A stretch of DNA of 39,631 bases from a virus. Below, one piece after another: positions 119 to 37,215 of the stretch. Position 1 is the first letter of the stretch. Every line of letters begins with the position of its first letter. Location of the stretch: the IMG/VR virus record IMGVR_UViG_3300036852_000166, positions 1 through 39,631 of that record; one strand, written 5' to 3'. The translations under genes were made by a program, and so were the position numbers. The notes under the pieces are model-generated. The model was given only the letters and a program-made list of their open reading frames with translations. It was not told the DNA's origin and ran no database searches.

Positions 119-378
119 CACGCCACCCCTCCATTCTCGATAGCCTCGCAGCAGCGATCGATGGTCTCGGAGACGGCGTCGAGCTTTGCGGCAGCTGCCT
201 GCGCGCGGGCGTAGTTCTCGATCAGCTCGGCTGCCTGCCTAAGCGGAATCGCCTGCGCGAGGATCGCAACCTCAAGGGCGCCGGTGATCGGTGGGGATTG
301 CGCGTAGAGGGGCGGGGTGTCGTCGTGTTTCGCGTAATCTCTGCGGTGATCCCAGTATTCAGCGTCGTACTTCGTCAT
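118..378 (-). CDS. Hypothetical phage protein, 86 aa
   Basis: This early leftward gene encodes a small soluble protein beginning MTKYDAEYW. I chose the ATG at 376-378 because it overlaps the TGA of the HNH gene (ATGA) and has GGAGGA 9 bases upstream; a longer in-frame start inside the HNH gene is less likely. The middle is Ala-rich and probably helical (residues 45-75). No domain is recognised and function is unknown. It lies between the HNH endonuclease and the ORF at the left edge in one tightly coupled operon. Confidence 0.7.
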   Translation of the reverse strand: MTKYDAEYWDHRRDYAKHDDTPPLYAQSPPITGALEVAILAQAIPLRQAAELIENYARAQAAAAKLDAVSETIDRCCEAIENGGVA

Positions 379-944
379 GAGCAAAGTCCTCCTGCAAATT
401 CGCCGTGATGAAGGCGTGCAGCATCGCAATACGCGGCATGCGCAAGTTCGGGCGTGTCAAACATTCCGAGATAGCGAACCTTGCCAGCGGCTGAGATTTG
501 AGCCCGGTAGCGGCTGTTGTGAGCACAGACGCCCTTCAGCCCTACTTTGCTGCGCGGACTGACAGGTTGGTTCGCACCGTTCTGTGAGTGCGAGGCTTCG
601 CGCAGATTTACGAAGCGATTGTCGATCTTGTTGCGATTTTCGTGGTCGAGCGACCGCGTCGGCCACGCGCCGGTGTGCATCGCCCAAACAACCCGATGGA
701 CCCGGAATTTCTCACCGTCGATCGTGACGTCGAGATAGCCAGAAGGAGAGAGCGTACCGGCCGGAAGCCCGGCGAACCGAGTATTTACGGCGCCAAACTG
801 GCGGGAATGCTTGAAATGAGATCGCGGCCGATGCCTCCATGTGAGAAGGCCGCGCACGGGGTCGTAATCGAAGCATTCATGGAGGTAGTCGATCGATACC
901 CGGTAATGATCGGCGCGCTCGTACTCATTGGCCATGCGGGTCAT
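375..944 (-). CDS. HNH endonuclease with C-terminal AP2-type DNA-binding domain
   Basis: The 189-aa protein has an HNH-type core at about residues 55-125 (HRVVWAMHTG...SLDHENRNKIDN...NLREA) with the His and Asn residues of the fold. An AP2/ERF-like beta-sheet domain follows at about 135-185 (GLKGV...YLGMFDTPELAHAAY). This pairing is typical of free-standing phage HNH homing-type nucleases that cut specific DNA and spread by gene conversion. GAGGG precedes the ATG at 942-944; a second ATG is four codons in. It is the first sizeable gene after the leftward early promoter. Whether it is mobile or has been adopted by the phage cannot be told from sequence. Confidence 0.9.
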   Translation of the reverse strand: MTRMANEYERADHYRVSIDYLHECFDYDPVRGLLTWRHRPRSHFKHSRQFGAVNTRFAGLPAGTLSPSGYLDVTIDGEKFRVHRVVWAMHTGAWPTRSLDHENRNKIDNRFVNLREASHSQNGANQPVSPRSKVGLKGVCAHNSRYRAQISAAGKVRYLGMFDTPELAHAAYCDAARLHHGEFAGGLCS

Positions 945-1062: not shown

Positions 1063-1090
1063 ATCCTACCTAAATTTGGGTATATGTCAA
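1063..1090 (-). promoter_or_regulatory. Leftward early promoter (PL-like)
   Basis: On the minus strand a perfect -35 box TTGACA (1085-1090) is followed by a 16-bp spacer and TAGGAT (1063-1068). It points into the HNH operon. One operator-like site fills the spacer and a second abuts the -35 box, so it is probably repressed by the product of the adjacent repressor gene. Confidence 0.75.
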
Positions 1091-1105
1091 CCTAAAAATG
1101 GGTAT
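1068..1105. promoter_or_regulatory. Operator pair at the leftward promoter
   Basis: ACCTAAATTTGGGTAT (1068-1083) and ACCTAAAAATGGGTAT (1090-1105) are two near-identical 16-mers with starts 22 bp apart, about two helical turns. The first is close to palindromic over its inner 14 bases. The first recurs exactly at the rightward promoter (1524-1539), as expected for repressor or Cro binding sites. Confidence 0.7.
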
Positions 1106-1463
1106 CAGCCGGTTTTTAGTTTTTCCTTAGCGGCCTCAACCCGTTCGGCGATCGCGGCCGTGATGGCGGCTTGATCTTCCGGGGAAAGCATCTTGTAGCT
1201 TTGCTGGACTTCGACGTCGGTCATGATCGGGGGGCCAATTTCCTTCGGTCCAGTGCCCCAGAGCAGATATTCACCGGTGTCATTAAAGCCTCAGACAAAG
1301 CTCCTGCAGAGACGTGCGGGCGCTTCATGGTGCCCTTTTCAATCCAGCCTATGTTGGTCTGGCTATAGCCGGCAAGCTTACCCAGTCGCGCCTGGCTCAA
1401 TCCTCGAGCCACTCTGCGTTCGCGCACACGGCCGCCGAACTTTATGGGATCCGCCTCTTTCAT
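1105..1463 (-). pseudogene. XRE-family phage repressor (CI-like) with one-base frameshift
   Basis: From the ATG at 1461-1463 the frame encodes a helix-turn-helix XRE domain (GGRVRERRVARGLSQARLGK, then AGYSQTNIGWIEKG; about residues 10-45). It is lost after SEAL (residue 60) and would end after 80 aa with an unrelated tail. Restoring one base near 1283-1287 brings in a natural continuation, NDTGEYLLWGTGPKE, which runs to a TGA at 1105-1107, giving about 119 aa. The 359-bp span is exactly one base short of a whole number of codons. This is a disrupted repressor, a sequencing deletion in an A run, or a -1 frameshifting gene. It sits between the two early promoters as lambda cI does. Confidence 0.8.
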
Positions 1464-1468
1464 GGGTT

Positions 1469-1492
1469 CCAACCTACCAAAATCTAGGTTGG
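1469..1492. promoter_or_regulatory. Palindromic operator-like site upstream of the repressor start
   Basis: CCAACCTA and TAGGTTGG are perfect 8-base inverted arms around an 8-base spacer, 6 bp upstream of the repressor ATG. The half-site ACCTA is shared with the other operator sequences but the spacing differs. Autoregulation of the repressor is the likely role. Confidence 0.55.
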
Positions 1493-1504: not shown

Positions 1505-1539
1505 GATTTTTAGGTTGCAATCGACCTAAATTTGGGTAT
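1505..1539. promoter_or_regulatory. Operator sequences at the rightward promoter
   Basis: ACCTAAATTTGGGTAT (1524-1539) is identical to the operator at 1068-1083. A partial inverted copy, read ACCTAAAAAT on the minus strand, lies at about 1506-1515. They cover the spacer and the -35 region of the rightward promoter. Confidence 0.65.
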
Positions 1540-1548: not shown

Positions 1549-1770
1549 ATGTCCAACGAAGCACTCAAGCGCGCCTGCGAACTGGCTGGGGGGCAAAAGC
1601 CCTTAGCGGATCGCATCGGCACCACACAATCGCAAGTCTGGTATTGGCTCGAGAAATCGAAGCGGGGCGTGCCCGCCGAGTTTGTCTTGTCGATCGAACG
1701 CGAGACTGGCGTCTCCCGATCTGCGCTGCGTCCAGATTTGTGGCCTGAAGATTCTGAGGCCCGAGCATGA
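1549..1770 (+). CDS. Cro-like / YdaS-family DNA-binding regulator
   Basis: The 73-aa protein (MSNEALKRACELAGGQKPLA...TQSQVWYWLEKSKRGVPAEF) matches the YdaS_antitoxin/Cro helix-turn-helix pattern: helix 1 with AGGQKPLADRIG, a recognition helix around TTQSQVWYWL, then the RGVPAEFVLSIERETGV segment. It is divergent from the repressor and is the first gene of the rightward operon, so it is probably the lytic-switch regulator. No Shine-Dalgarno precedes the ATG, consistent with leaderless translation from the promoter at 1515-1542. Confidence 0.85.
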   Translation: MSNEALKRACELAGGQKPLADRIGTTQSQVWYWLEKSKRGVPAEFVLSIERETGVSRSALRPDLWPEDSEARA

Positions 1771-7755: not shown

Positions 7756-9206
7756 CGGCCGAGCCAAGCCTGGAGGAACTGCGCGAGCTCACCGAGGCGC
7801 TGGACGTCATCGAGTATTCCGAGACCTACGAGCGGTTTCGGTCGTTCGTGCCGCATCCAAAGCAGAAGGCGCATCTCGATCTCGGCTTGAAGAAGCGCGA
7901 GCGGCTGCTGATGGCCGGCAACCGGAACGGCAAGACGGAGACGGGCGCGTTCGAGGCGGCCTGCCATTTGACGGGCGAATACCCGGACGGTTGGGAGGGG
8001 CGGCAGTTCGAGCAACCGACGATCGGCTGGATATGCGGCGAGACCTCGCTTCTGGTGCGCGACATCCAGCAGAAGAAGCTTTGCGGACCGCCCGGAGTCG
8101 ACGCCCTGTTCGGCACCGGGATGATTCCGAAGGATGCTTTCACGGACAAACCGTCGCTGGCGCGCGGCGTCACCGACGCCTACGACACGATTCAGGTCCG
8201 ACACAAGTCTGGCGGGATATCGATCGGCAGGTTCAAGTCCTATGAGCAGGGTCGGCAGAAGTTCCAGGGTGAGGGCCTCGATTGGATCTGGTTCGACGAG
8301 GAGCCGCCACTGGATATCTATGCCGAGGGAATCGCCCGGATCGGCGAAAAGGACGGCGTTTCGTGGCTGACCTTCACGCCGCTGAAGGGCCGCTCGGACG
8401 TCGTGCTGCGCTTCCTCGACGACCCGTCGGACGACCGCGGCATCACCATGATGACGCTGGATGATGCACTGCACATCCCATCTGGTGCACGGAAGAAGAT
8501 GCTGGACGGCTACCTGCCGCACGAACGGGAGGCGCGGGCGCGCGGCGTGCCGACGCTGGGGTCTGGTCGCATTTTCATGGCGCCGGAGGAATCGATCATC
8601 GAGGCGCCAATCACCTATGTCCCGGACCACTGGGTGAAGCTGTTCGGGATCGATTTCGGCATCGGCCACCCGTTTGCCGCGGTACTCCTGCTGTGGGACC
8701 GCGACAACGACGTGATCCACATCCACCACACCTACCGCGTGGCGGACGCACTTCCGATACAGCACGCGTCGGCGATGAAGCCGGTGGGCGCCGCGGTGCC
8801 GGTGGCATGGCCGCGGGACGGCACCAACCGCGCCGCCGACGGCAAGCCGCTGTCTGATCACTACAAGCGGCAGGGCCTGCGGATGCTGGCCGAGCACGCC
8901 ACTTGGCCCGATGGATCGGTATCGACGGAAGCCGGCATCCTCGAGATGGACGAGCGCGAGAAGTCCGGCCGGTTGAAGGTCGCGGCGCACCTGTCGGATT
9001 ATCTGGAGGAGCGGAGGTTCTATCACCGCAAGGATGGCCTGATCGTCAAGCTGAAGGACGATCTGATGTCGGCCGCGCGCACCGGGATCATGATGAAGCG
9101 CTTCGCGCGCGCGGTTCCGCTTGGCGGCAAAACCCTGGCCCGCAACAGCAACATCATCGCCACCGGCGCCAACTTCGACGTCTTCACCGGTGCGTTGCTG
9201 GGGTAG
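7752..9206 (+). CDS. terL: Terminase large subunit (ATPase and nuclease)
   Basis: The 484-aa packaging motor has Walker A AGNRNGKTE (about residues 55-63) and Walker B LDWIWFDEEPP (about 177-187). The C-terminal RNase H-like nuclease is marked by FGIDFGIGHP (about 298-307) and later acidic residues. It drives DNA into the procapsid and cuts the concatemer. The GTG start at 7752 overlaps the small-subunit TGA. Its last codons contain a copy of the late motif, which encodes the GALL of its C-terminus. Confidence 0.95.
   Translation: MTAEPSLEELRELTEALDVIEYSETYERFRSFVPHPKQKAHLDLGLKKRERLLMAGNRNGKTETGAFEAACHLTGEYPDGWEGRQFEQPTIGWICGETSLLVRDIQQKKLCGPPGVDALFGTGMIPKDAFTDKPSLARGVTDAYDTIQVRHKSGGISIGRFKSYEQGRQKFQGEGLDWIWFDEEPPLDIYAEGIARIGEKDGVSWLTFTPLKGRSDVVLRFLDDPSDDRGITMMTLDDALHIPSGARKKMLDGYLPHEREARARGVPTLGSGRIFMAPEESIIEAPITYVPDHWVKLFGIDFGIGHPFAAVLLLWDRDNDVIHIHHTYRVADALPIQHASAMKPVGAAVPVAWPRDGTNRAADGKPLSDHYKRQGLRMLAEHATWPDGSVSTEAGILEMDEREKSGRLKVAAHLSDYLEERRFYHRKDGLIVKLKDDLMSAARTGIMMKRFARAVPLGGKTLARNSNIIATGANFDVFTGALLG
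9189..9201 (+). repeat. Late-module leader motif, copy 2 (exact)
   Basis: GGTGCGTTGCTGG overlaps the 3' end of the large terminase gene and lies 38 bases before an ATG at 9227. CGGCG/CGCCG arms (9209-9213, 9231-9235) would place that ATG in a loop. Confidence 0.75.
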
Positions 9207-13614: not shown

Positions 13615-13634
13615 ATAGACCCGTGCATCCCGGT

Positions 13635-13684
13635 CCCCGCAAGGACAAGTCCGGCTCGGTAGTTACGGCCCCCGCAAGGACAAG
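13635..13684 (+). repeat. Direct repeat in the coat-gene leader
   Basis: CCCCGCAAGGACAAG occurs at 13635-13649 and again at 13670-13684, 35 bp apart. AAGGA inside each copy could bind ribosomes. No start codon is well placed after the first copy. Confidence 0.6.
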
Positions 13685-20500: not shown

Positions 20501-20848
20501 TTCACCTACAACAGCGACGGACAACTCGTCCGCCCGATCGCCCCGGCAGACACCGGCGCGCGCAACGGGCCCGCGCTCGGCAAGACCCGGCGCAATCACC
20601 AATATTCGGTGCTGGTGTCGAACACACTCGGGCTCTCGTTCGGCGGCACGTTCGCGGTCGCTCGGCCGGCGCAGTTCCGGAAAGCCAACGGCAACCCGAT
20701 CGACCAACTCACGATGTTCTCCGGGGTGCATCACGACACGCTGTCCGACGACTACAGCTATGATGGCATGGTGGCGTGGCGCGTGACGCGACCGTGGCCG
20801 GCAAACATCGTCGCCATCAGTGGCAACGTGCAAACACAAGACAGGTAG
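17546..20848 (+). CDS. Tail tubular protein B-like / tail hub (T7 gp12 type)
   Basis: The 1100-aa protein begins AIPSFLGGEISDFAQGRFDK and has the RPGTMHAG, FNEGRIW-like YNEGRIWLGG and PMFWMRPDLQGVVIGTQQGE blocks of gp12-like tail nozzle or stabilisation proteins. As in the previous gene, CBM5/12-like motifs are inserted (AYVSTKAYAEGTFVTYSGIN at about 272-291; FNPATTYSAGNVVTYNPSG at about 345-363). It would form the distal tail and may touch surface polysaccharide. It starts two bases after the previous stop. Confidence 0.85.
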   Translation: MGDAVYAIPSFLGGEISDFAQGRFDKPDYRVSLNICLNSFPVEIGAWTRRPGTMHAGPTRGGAAGRTIKFDFEQAAAVTLEFTDGYMRFRSGAALLSTNDEQAIVSISSADPAVVETAAHGWTGTISVIFDGLGENNPLLQGRVFTGAVTSGTQFTLTDPLTGAAINGSTLGTFVSGTVRRVQELATLYTGTSWENVRPVQAETTDVLLCPLIPPQVLTVETLPSEGIEPQFEIASAVFIDGPYLDPFINGVQAVPNAVSGIINLTLSFAAYVSTKAYAEGTFVTYSGINYVSLIDQNVGNTPSTSLSAWSQTSAAAAINDGRGFLGTDTGRLVRLLSEPPAFNPATTYSAGNVVTYNPSGEPGASTYWQAKTTTTGTPPGYDLSNWEIIPSGPAVWTWGRITGLSNVIDRLLPGSIAIGDMTEFNGITAPFDGNFSKAVNQSAAETITGGSVITGGTVSVSSYAGKFFGAGPQQIQQATIYPTLDRGFGFAEFVVGGVLTSFLATFTLNLRGKATAPASPSDGALLGSTSFGGSSVTTTIVSNDQTTGWNYVWIELVISSTLTSGFATSYRIGSSIAQISFFNPTSSSSSGAGCSVEILGPPLVDTTPIATWRLGVYSNTTGWPTCGTYNEGRIWLGGAVANRFDASVSNGISGNTLNFSPTNQFGVVAASNALNYTLNSDGVNPMFWMRPDLQGVVIGTQQGEWLVQAPTTGPIAPTNIAARRMTKHGSANVDPVRTEHANLFVKRYGRKLMEYFADAYSGKFSAPNLADKAGHIVSAGIIELAYTEAVTPIVWGRDGDNALFGMTYRRTAIATAQPPDFYAWHRHTLGSGRTVESISAGPSVGGDLDTVTLVTNDADTGIRHVEVLTDAPDENTELADAWFLDNAVEPSSAIVDLTPIDPTAPYGGVTLNGLWHLNGETVQVFASGLDCGDRGTASSPGYFTDFLVTDGSCFVPFGDGIDAGCGRGLFTPEFLAANPRVVVGFTYNSDGQLVRPIAPADTGARNGPALGKTRRNHQYSVLVSNTLGLSFGGTFAVARPAQFRKANGNPIDQLTMFSGVHHDTLSDDYSYDGMVAWRVTRPWPANIVAISGNVQTQDR

Positions 20849-20851
20849 GCC

Positions 20852-21346
20852 ATGGCATTCGGCGTGGGCACCATCACCAGCATCGGCAGCGCGGTCCAAG
20901 ACCTGTTCGCCGCAGATGCGCACCGTTCAAAGGCGCAAGGCCTGCGCATCGAGGCCGGCAATTACGACCGTTCGTCCGAATTTTCCGAGCAGAGCGCGAG
21001 GTTCACGGAAACCTCGACAGCCATCAAGCAAGCGCAATTGGACCGCGACATCTACAAGACGCTCGGTGGGCAGGCGGCCGACGTGGCAGGCGCAGGTTTT
21101 GCCGCCAGCGGCACCGCGCTCGATCTCCTGCGGGACAGCGCTTCGCAGGGGGCGCTGACCAAGGCGGTCGGCAGCTTGCAAGGCCTGATCACCGAGGAAG
21201 GCTACGAGGTGCAGGCGAAGAATTACACCGCCATGGGCGAGGCGGCGCGTCTCGCTGCGGATGCCGAGGAGAACGCAGCGACCGGCGCGGAATGGTCGGC
21301 GGCATTCAAGGGCGCTGCAGCCATCACATCGATCTTTTTGAAGTAG
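20852..21346 (+). CDS. Internal virion protein (gp14-like position), 164 aa
   Basis: The product is Ala-rich and helical, with GLRIEAGNYDRSSEFSEQSA and DVAGAGFAASGTALDLLRDS, the look of small podovirus internal core or ejection proteins. It follows the tail nozzle gene and precedes two larger ejection proteins, the T7 gp14-15-16 order. It probably enters the cell envelope with the DNA to help form the ejection channel. Confidence 0.75.
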   Translation: MAFGVGTITSIGSAVQDLFAADAHRSKAQGLRIEAGNYDRSSEFSEQSARFTETSTAIKQAQLDRDIYKTLGGQAADVAGAGFAASGTALDLLRDSASQGALTKAVGSLQGLITEEGYEVQAKNYTAMGEAARLAADAEENAATGAEWSAAFKGAAAITSIFLK

Positions 21347-36213: not shown

Positions 36214-37215
36214 TTATTTTAGAAGACTTTCTGCAACTAGCTTAATCTCTGGTGTTCGTGGCGCGTCAACTAGAGCGTTGGTCAGCGTGATATCCTTCAG
36301 CGCGTGCCCGTAGGTCTTGAGCACCTGGGCCGGCGTCTTCCATCCCCCGAGATGCGCCACTGTCACCACGTCAACTCCGCGGCGCAGGAGGCCCGTAGCG
36401 AAGCCATGGCGGCACGAATGCGGAGTTAGACGCTTGATCTTCGCCCGCTTGATCGCGCCATGCCACGCCCTCACGATGTCGTCGGGGTGCTGGTAGACGA
36501 AGACCGGCCGTTCATTGACCCGCGGCAAGTTGGAGAGCATGGCAACGAGCGGCGTCGGCAGATGCGATATCCGCTCCTTGGAAACCTTCGACTCCTTGAT
36601 CAGCACAGTCCCGCCATTCAGGCTGACGTCCTCCCACTGGACAGCCGTAGCCTCACCAATGCGGGCTCCAGTCAGGAACATGAACCAGGCCAGCGCCTCA
36701 ATAACCGGCGCGGCTTGGGCGCTGAACGCGCGCAGCCACTCCAGCGTAACGGGCTCCTTGACCTTCGCGTCCACCTTGAACCGCTTGATCTTGATCGGCG
36801 AGCATAGCTCGGATTCCGCGGCAAAGTTGATCACGGCCTGGGCGGGACAGATCCCTTGGCGATTGCGGGTTGCCCCTGTGCCATTCGGGTATAGTTCAAT
36901 AGCCATCTGCCTGATCGTGCCTTTGTTGATGTCCTTGACCAGCGTTTCCTTAAAATAATCCTCGATGGGCTTCAGAAAGCGGTCGGACTTGCCAGACTTG
37001 CGGTAGAGTTGCGCGGCCCGAGCGAATGTTAGGATGGCGCCCGGACCATCGAAATGACCTTTCCAGTAATTGGCTTCGATCTCGGCAATCTGACGCGCCG
37101 CGATGTCTTTGTCCGCGGTTTTGCAAGAGCCTCTGAGGCGCGATCGGCGCTCAGCCGGGCCAATTGTGCCGCGGTAGTTCCAGACCCCGTTGCGCAGGTA
37201 GAGCTTGAGCGGCAT
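36214..37215 (-). CDS. int: Tyrosine-family phage integrase
   Basis: The 333-aa recombinase has an N-terminal arm-binding-like part, a core-binding region and a catalytic domain. Catalytic landmarks are Arg in TGARIGE (about 190), His-x-x-Arg in HSCRHGFAT (about 266-269), HLGGW (about 288) and the nucleophile Tyr in LKTYGHA (about 302). It integrates phage DNA at a host attachment site and, with an excisionase, removes it. Its first 187 bases overlap the upstream HTH gene. It reads leftward within the early/accessory operon. Confidence 0.95.
   Translation of the reverse strand: MPLKLYLRNGVWNYRGTIGPAERRSRLRGSCKTADKDIAARQIAEIEANYWKGHFDGPGAILTFARAAQLYRKSGKSDRFLKPIEDYFKETLVKDINKGTIRQMAIELYPNGTGATRNRQGICPAQAVINFAAESELCSPIKIKRFKVDAKVKEPVTLEWLRAFSAQAAPVIEALAWFMFLTGARIGEATAVQWEDVSLNGGTVLIKESKVSKERISHLPTPLVAMLSNLPRVNERPVFVYQHPDDIVRAWHGAIKRAKIKRLTPHSCRHGFATGLLRRGVDVVTVAHLGGWKTPAQVLKTYGHALKDITLTNALVDAPRTPEIKLVAESLLK

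Follow-up and report, generated by a model that had tools for sequence, protein, structure and literature searches.

Probable recent inactivation of a CI/434-like immunity repressor gene by a one-base frameshift in a temperate phage from the environment

The analysed window is a virus record of 39,631 bases displaying a temperate gene set, with open genes for an integrase, DNA methyltransferases, a DnaB-like helicase, terminase, a portal-like connector, capsid and tail. The intact integrase gene (36214-37215, minus strand; PHROG 1, E 6e-38), whose relatives are up to 82% identical, points to a temperate ancestry. A check for circular closure of the window, which would have argued for free phage DNA, showed no terminal repeat and no joining of frames across its ends.

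In the immunity region, a repressor gene on the minus strand is divergent from a YdaS-type Cro-like gene of 73 aa (1551-1769, plus strand; PF15943 YdaS_toxin, 64.4 bits for a cut-off of 30), whose product has related proteins at 25 loci, with identities of up to 93%. Operator-like palindromes of the form ACCNANNNNTNGGT occur four times in the whole window (at 1068, 1090, 1476 and 1524), for 0.24 expected; none of 100 shuffles reached this count. The divergent control region contains two of them, the other two surround a promoter-like sequence behind the repressor, and the same places are used in relatives. The palindrome of the divergent promoter region, ACCTAAATTTGGGT (1524-1537, plus strand), occupies the same position upstream of Cro in most of the more closely related loci. 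The palindrome search also retrieved ACCAAAATCTAGGT just upstream of the repressor start (1476-1489, plus strand) and ACCTAAAAATGGGT just past the repressor stop codon (1090-1103, plus strand), the latter being followed behind the repressor by a second copy of ACCTAAATTTGGGT (1068-1081, plus strand), in a pair with a 22-base spacing which recurs in several relatives. In loci L003-L017 an almost identical operator palindrome precedes Cro by about 25 bases; the HTH parts of their repressors often share no more than about 40-60% identity, and these repressors fall into two architectures, with either a short helical or a long C-terminus.

Read on the minus strand from the ATG at 1463, the repressor frame encodes MKEADPIKFGGRVRERRVARGLSQARLGKLAGYSQTNIGWIEKGTMKRPHVSAGALSEAL, then an unrelated tail, MTPVNICSGALDRRKLAPRS, up to a stop at 1221, giving a product of 80 aa. 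The first 60 residues are family-like and the following 20 are foreign, the family sequence being left after SEAL. The expected second half, with EYLLWGTGPKE, is open in the -1 frame, which reads NDTGEYLLWGTGPKEIGPPIMTDVEVQQSYKMLSPEDQAAITAAIAERVEAAKEKLKTG and stops at 1105-1107 (minus strand). Four segments can be delimited on this strand: an intact 5' part of 60 codons encoding HTH helices 1-4 (1284-1463), defined by Pfam and by the match to the nearest relative found, L002; the interval of the one-base frame change with respect to intact relatives (1272-1293); the out-of-family tail of 20 residues plus stop in the starting frame, which ends the 80-aa product (1221-1283) and was recognised from the reading frame and a low-confidence model; and a 3' part in the -1 frame encoding helix 5 and a C-terminal helical pair (1105-1284), identified by its identity to L002 and its dN/dS. 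The first-pass annotation had described a repressor frame lost after SEAL with its C-terminus continuing in the -1 frame to its own stop, and both the translation and L002 confirm this description. It had also ascribed the loss to a base missing in TTAAA at 1283-1287; this motif is there, but the site is only confined to 1272-1293, an interval delimited on one side by the final stop of the -1 frame (1291-1293) and on the other by the conserved EYLL codons, which begin at 1272, and consistent with the L002 alignment. Sequence and homology place the change somewhere between 1293 and 1272, the exact base not being fixable from them. The repressor matches HTH_31 with 39.3 bits (Pfam cut-off 27) and HTH_3 with 24.4 bits (cut-off 23). 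A complete five-helix domain with an oligomerisation region in one frame is absent in the window gene and present in L002, and the window gene is a broken, not a functional, member of the CI/434-like XRE HTH immunity repressors.

The viral contigs were searched with the two repressor halves joined by an unknown residue. L002, the nearest relative retrieved, encodes the repressor in one unbroken frame of 119 aa, with 74% protein identity over the whole length. The first 49 residues of the window repressor are 82% identical to L002 and the -1-frame segment matches it with 73% identity over 55 residues (E 2e-17); this last match is far beyond chance, given its E value and the continuity of both halves in a single L002 frame. 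With the neighbouring Cro-like protein as query, 25 related loci were gathered, one of them being the contig of L002, and in 25 of 25 the gene divergent from the Cro-type gene is a single open repressor frame of at least 110 aa, some of these repressors carrying a long C-terminal domain instead of a short one. The comparison with the closest relatives proposed in the first-pass annotation thus returned an intact gene in L002 and in all the syntenic loci. The family consensus at the break (AL-x-T-T-x-E-W-L-L) also runs straight through, and the frame change is therefore private to the window among the relatives that could be found. A repressor search in 12 related records gave the intact L002 and one weak match. 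No DNA similar to positions 500-2500 was found in phage GenBank records, exact matching of the break region, allowing 0-2 free bases, gave no viral contig, and no second copy of the window phage, with or without the frame change, was found in the viral collection. Bacterial genomes yielded no close repressor, and the relatives of the terminase in these genomes reach 49% identity or less.

Both parts of the gene remain constrained. Compared with L002, dN/dS is 0.075 in the 5' part and 0.107 in the 3' part read in its own frame, these ratios being rough because dS is high (about 1.4-1.5). Changes by codon position amount to 9/6/28 in the 5' part and 7/8/27 in the 3' part, third positions accounting for 28 of 43 and 27 of 42 changes, respectively. 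Both halves thus appear to have been under strong purifying selection as one protein until recently, with no sign of decay, and the break is therefore either very young or not real. The second possibility, in which an error of sequencing or assembly in the consensus hides a normal temperate phage with an intact repressor, is the less probable one but deserves serious consideration: the undecayed halves and the intact state of all relatives fit it, and the record is a virus contig of unknown read support. Against it, the interval has no homopolymer of at least 4 bases, the nearest being a GGGG located 3' of it, and is not a classic error site. Moreover, the open frames of related loci covered 28,776 bases when compared with the whole window, and the repressor was the only genuine window gene found broken; with nothing else frameshifted across these 28.8 kb, a real mutation is weakly favoured. 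Further candidate frameshifts, near 8460, 9720, 13620-13680, 14700 and 20820-21300, were judged from strand and frame numbers and attributed to shadow or antisense frames, to two adjacent genes joined together or to a break on the relative's side, none of them interrupting a window gene. The terminase frame of L060 (region around 10485) matches the window in two frames, and a frameshift may thus be present in the L060 contig itself.

The family profile matches residues 2-67 of the 434 repressor (E 6e-21). The L002 protein was modelled with a mean pLDDT of 90 and helices at residues 6-19, 24-31, 35-42, 49-60, 64-69, 83-92 and 95-118, corresponding to five HTH helices, the last ending at residue 69, followed by two paired C-terminal helices (83-92, 95-118). 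On this model, the break is predicted to fall between helix 4 and helix 5 of the 434-repressor-like domain. In the 80-aa product, helices 1-4 are modelled well and the part beyond residue 60 poorly (block mean pLDDT 68, 44), with pLDDT below 50 at residues 72-80. This product is still modelled with five helices, including a short one at 64-68, and may retain some residual binding. It should nevertheless be non-functional as a repressor, because the break removes helix 5 and the C-terminal helical pair.

Two further explanations keep the interrupted gene in use. Programmed -1 ribosomal frameshifting, evoked in the first-pass annotation together with a defective repressor and a sequencing error, would yield a short and a full-length repressor, and the change is indeed in the -1 direction that this requires and precedes the starting-frame stop. 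However, the stretch from the -1 stop to the 0-frame stop contains no X XXY YYZ heptamer; the single one in the gene, AAAGGGC, is upstream of the -1 stop at 1291-1293, where slippage would lead to termination. The downstream RNA is less stable than the shuffle mean (z +1.06), 176 of 200 shuffles folding at least as well in pseudoknot-free predictions, and the arrangement is not conserved, since L002 and all 25 syntenic genes need no frameshifting. This makes recoding exceedingly improbable, and of the options first proposed, a repressor broken by a one-base change is the one upheld by L002 and the 25 intact syntenic genes. Alternatively, the gene could be split and still working. A possible re-initiation frame (1105-1224, minus strand) would encode a C-terminal peptide of 39 aa, its ATG (1224-1222) overlapping exactly the TGA (1223-1221) of the starting frame as ATGA, and this peptide, which spans both C-terminal helices of the modelled L002, could act together with the 80-aa HTH piece through coupling at 1221-1224. 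But helix 5 is then in neither piece, no relative is so organised, and the overlap stems from conserved Met-Thr codons also found inside the intact L002 gene; it is probably a coincidence, and a working split repressor is very unlikely. It is just as difficult to credit that both frames are expressed, by ATGA coupling or unusual slippage, so as to provide a split or low-level repressor tuning the lysis-lysogeny decision.

The locus is thus best explained as a temperate-phage immunity repressor gene of the CI/434 type that a one-base frame change has probably inactivated very recently. The repressor would be shortened to 80 aa from about 119, keeping HTH helices 1-4, and would fold poorly, fail to dimerise and not hold its operators. 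Repression of the divergent YdaS/Cro gene and of the promoter behind the repressor would be lifted, with lytic growth and clear plaques as the outcome. We infer the loss of function, the lytic phenotype and the presence of the change in real molecules alike. Phage 434 CI and lambda-type XRE repressors share with this locus the five-helix HTH domain, the divergent Cro-type gene and the palindromic operator-like sites. They differ in that the close family described here ends in a short pair of helices where the known repressors have a long C-terminal domain, a long C-terminus being found in the relatives L008, L016 and L017, and in that the window copy is frameshifted. In the lactococcal phage TP901-1, the clear-plaque mutants C9 and C26 carry cI frameshifts (PMC4892519), and as in the window a single frameshift lies in the part of the repressor gene that encodes the N-terminal, DNA-binding region (PMC4892519); these mutants are laboratory isolates of tested phenotype, whereas the window allele is known from a virus contig sequence alone. 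The window allele is most likely equal in kind to these TP901-1 alleles, with a consensus error as its main rival. In the rac prophage of E. coli K-12, loss of RacR is lethal to the host (PMC5700373). RacR-YdaS/YdaT resembles the window locus by a repressor divergent from a YdaS gene and by repeat elements in the shared intergenic region (PMC5700373), but rac is a cryptic prophage in which racR is intact and essential (PMC5700373), while the window repressor is broken. By analogy with RacR-YdaS, a stable prophage with the frameshifted allele would not be expected, and a lytic phage would therefore be the simplest state. If the change is real, it represents a naturally occurring clear (lysogeny-defective) allele, caught very soon after arising in a temperate phage from the environment, and integrase-bearing contigs should then not be called temperate by gene content alone. 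In other respects it would be a common type of loss-of-function mutation, long familiar from clear-plaque mutants.

Behind the repressor, a sigma-70-like promoter (TTGACA, 16, TAGGAT; 1063-1090, minus strand; one found against 0.5 expected by chance) overlaps the operator-like palindrome at 1068-1081 and reads into the genes after the repressor. The promoter-like site and two operator-like palindromes are grouped at 1063-1103, with the spaced pair conserved as noted above, and this arrangement suggests a second repressor-controlled operon behind the repressor gene. An HNH_3 endonuclease gene (375-944, minus strand; E 2e-12) separates the repressor-side promoter from the conserved ORF that comes next (from 378). 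It looks like a mobile insertion, because in L002 the conserved ORF comes directly after the promoter, without an HNH_3 gene between them.
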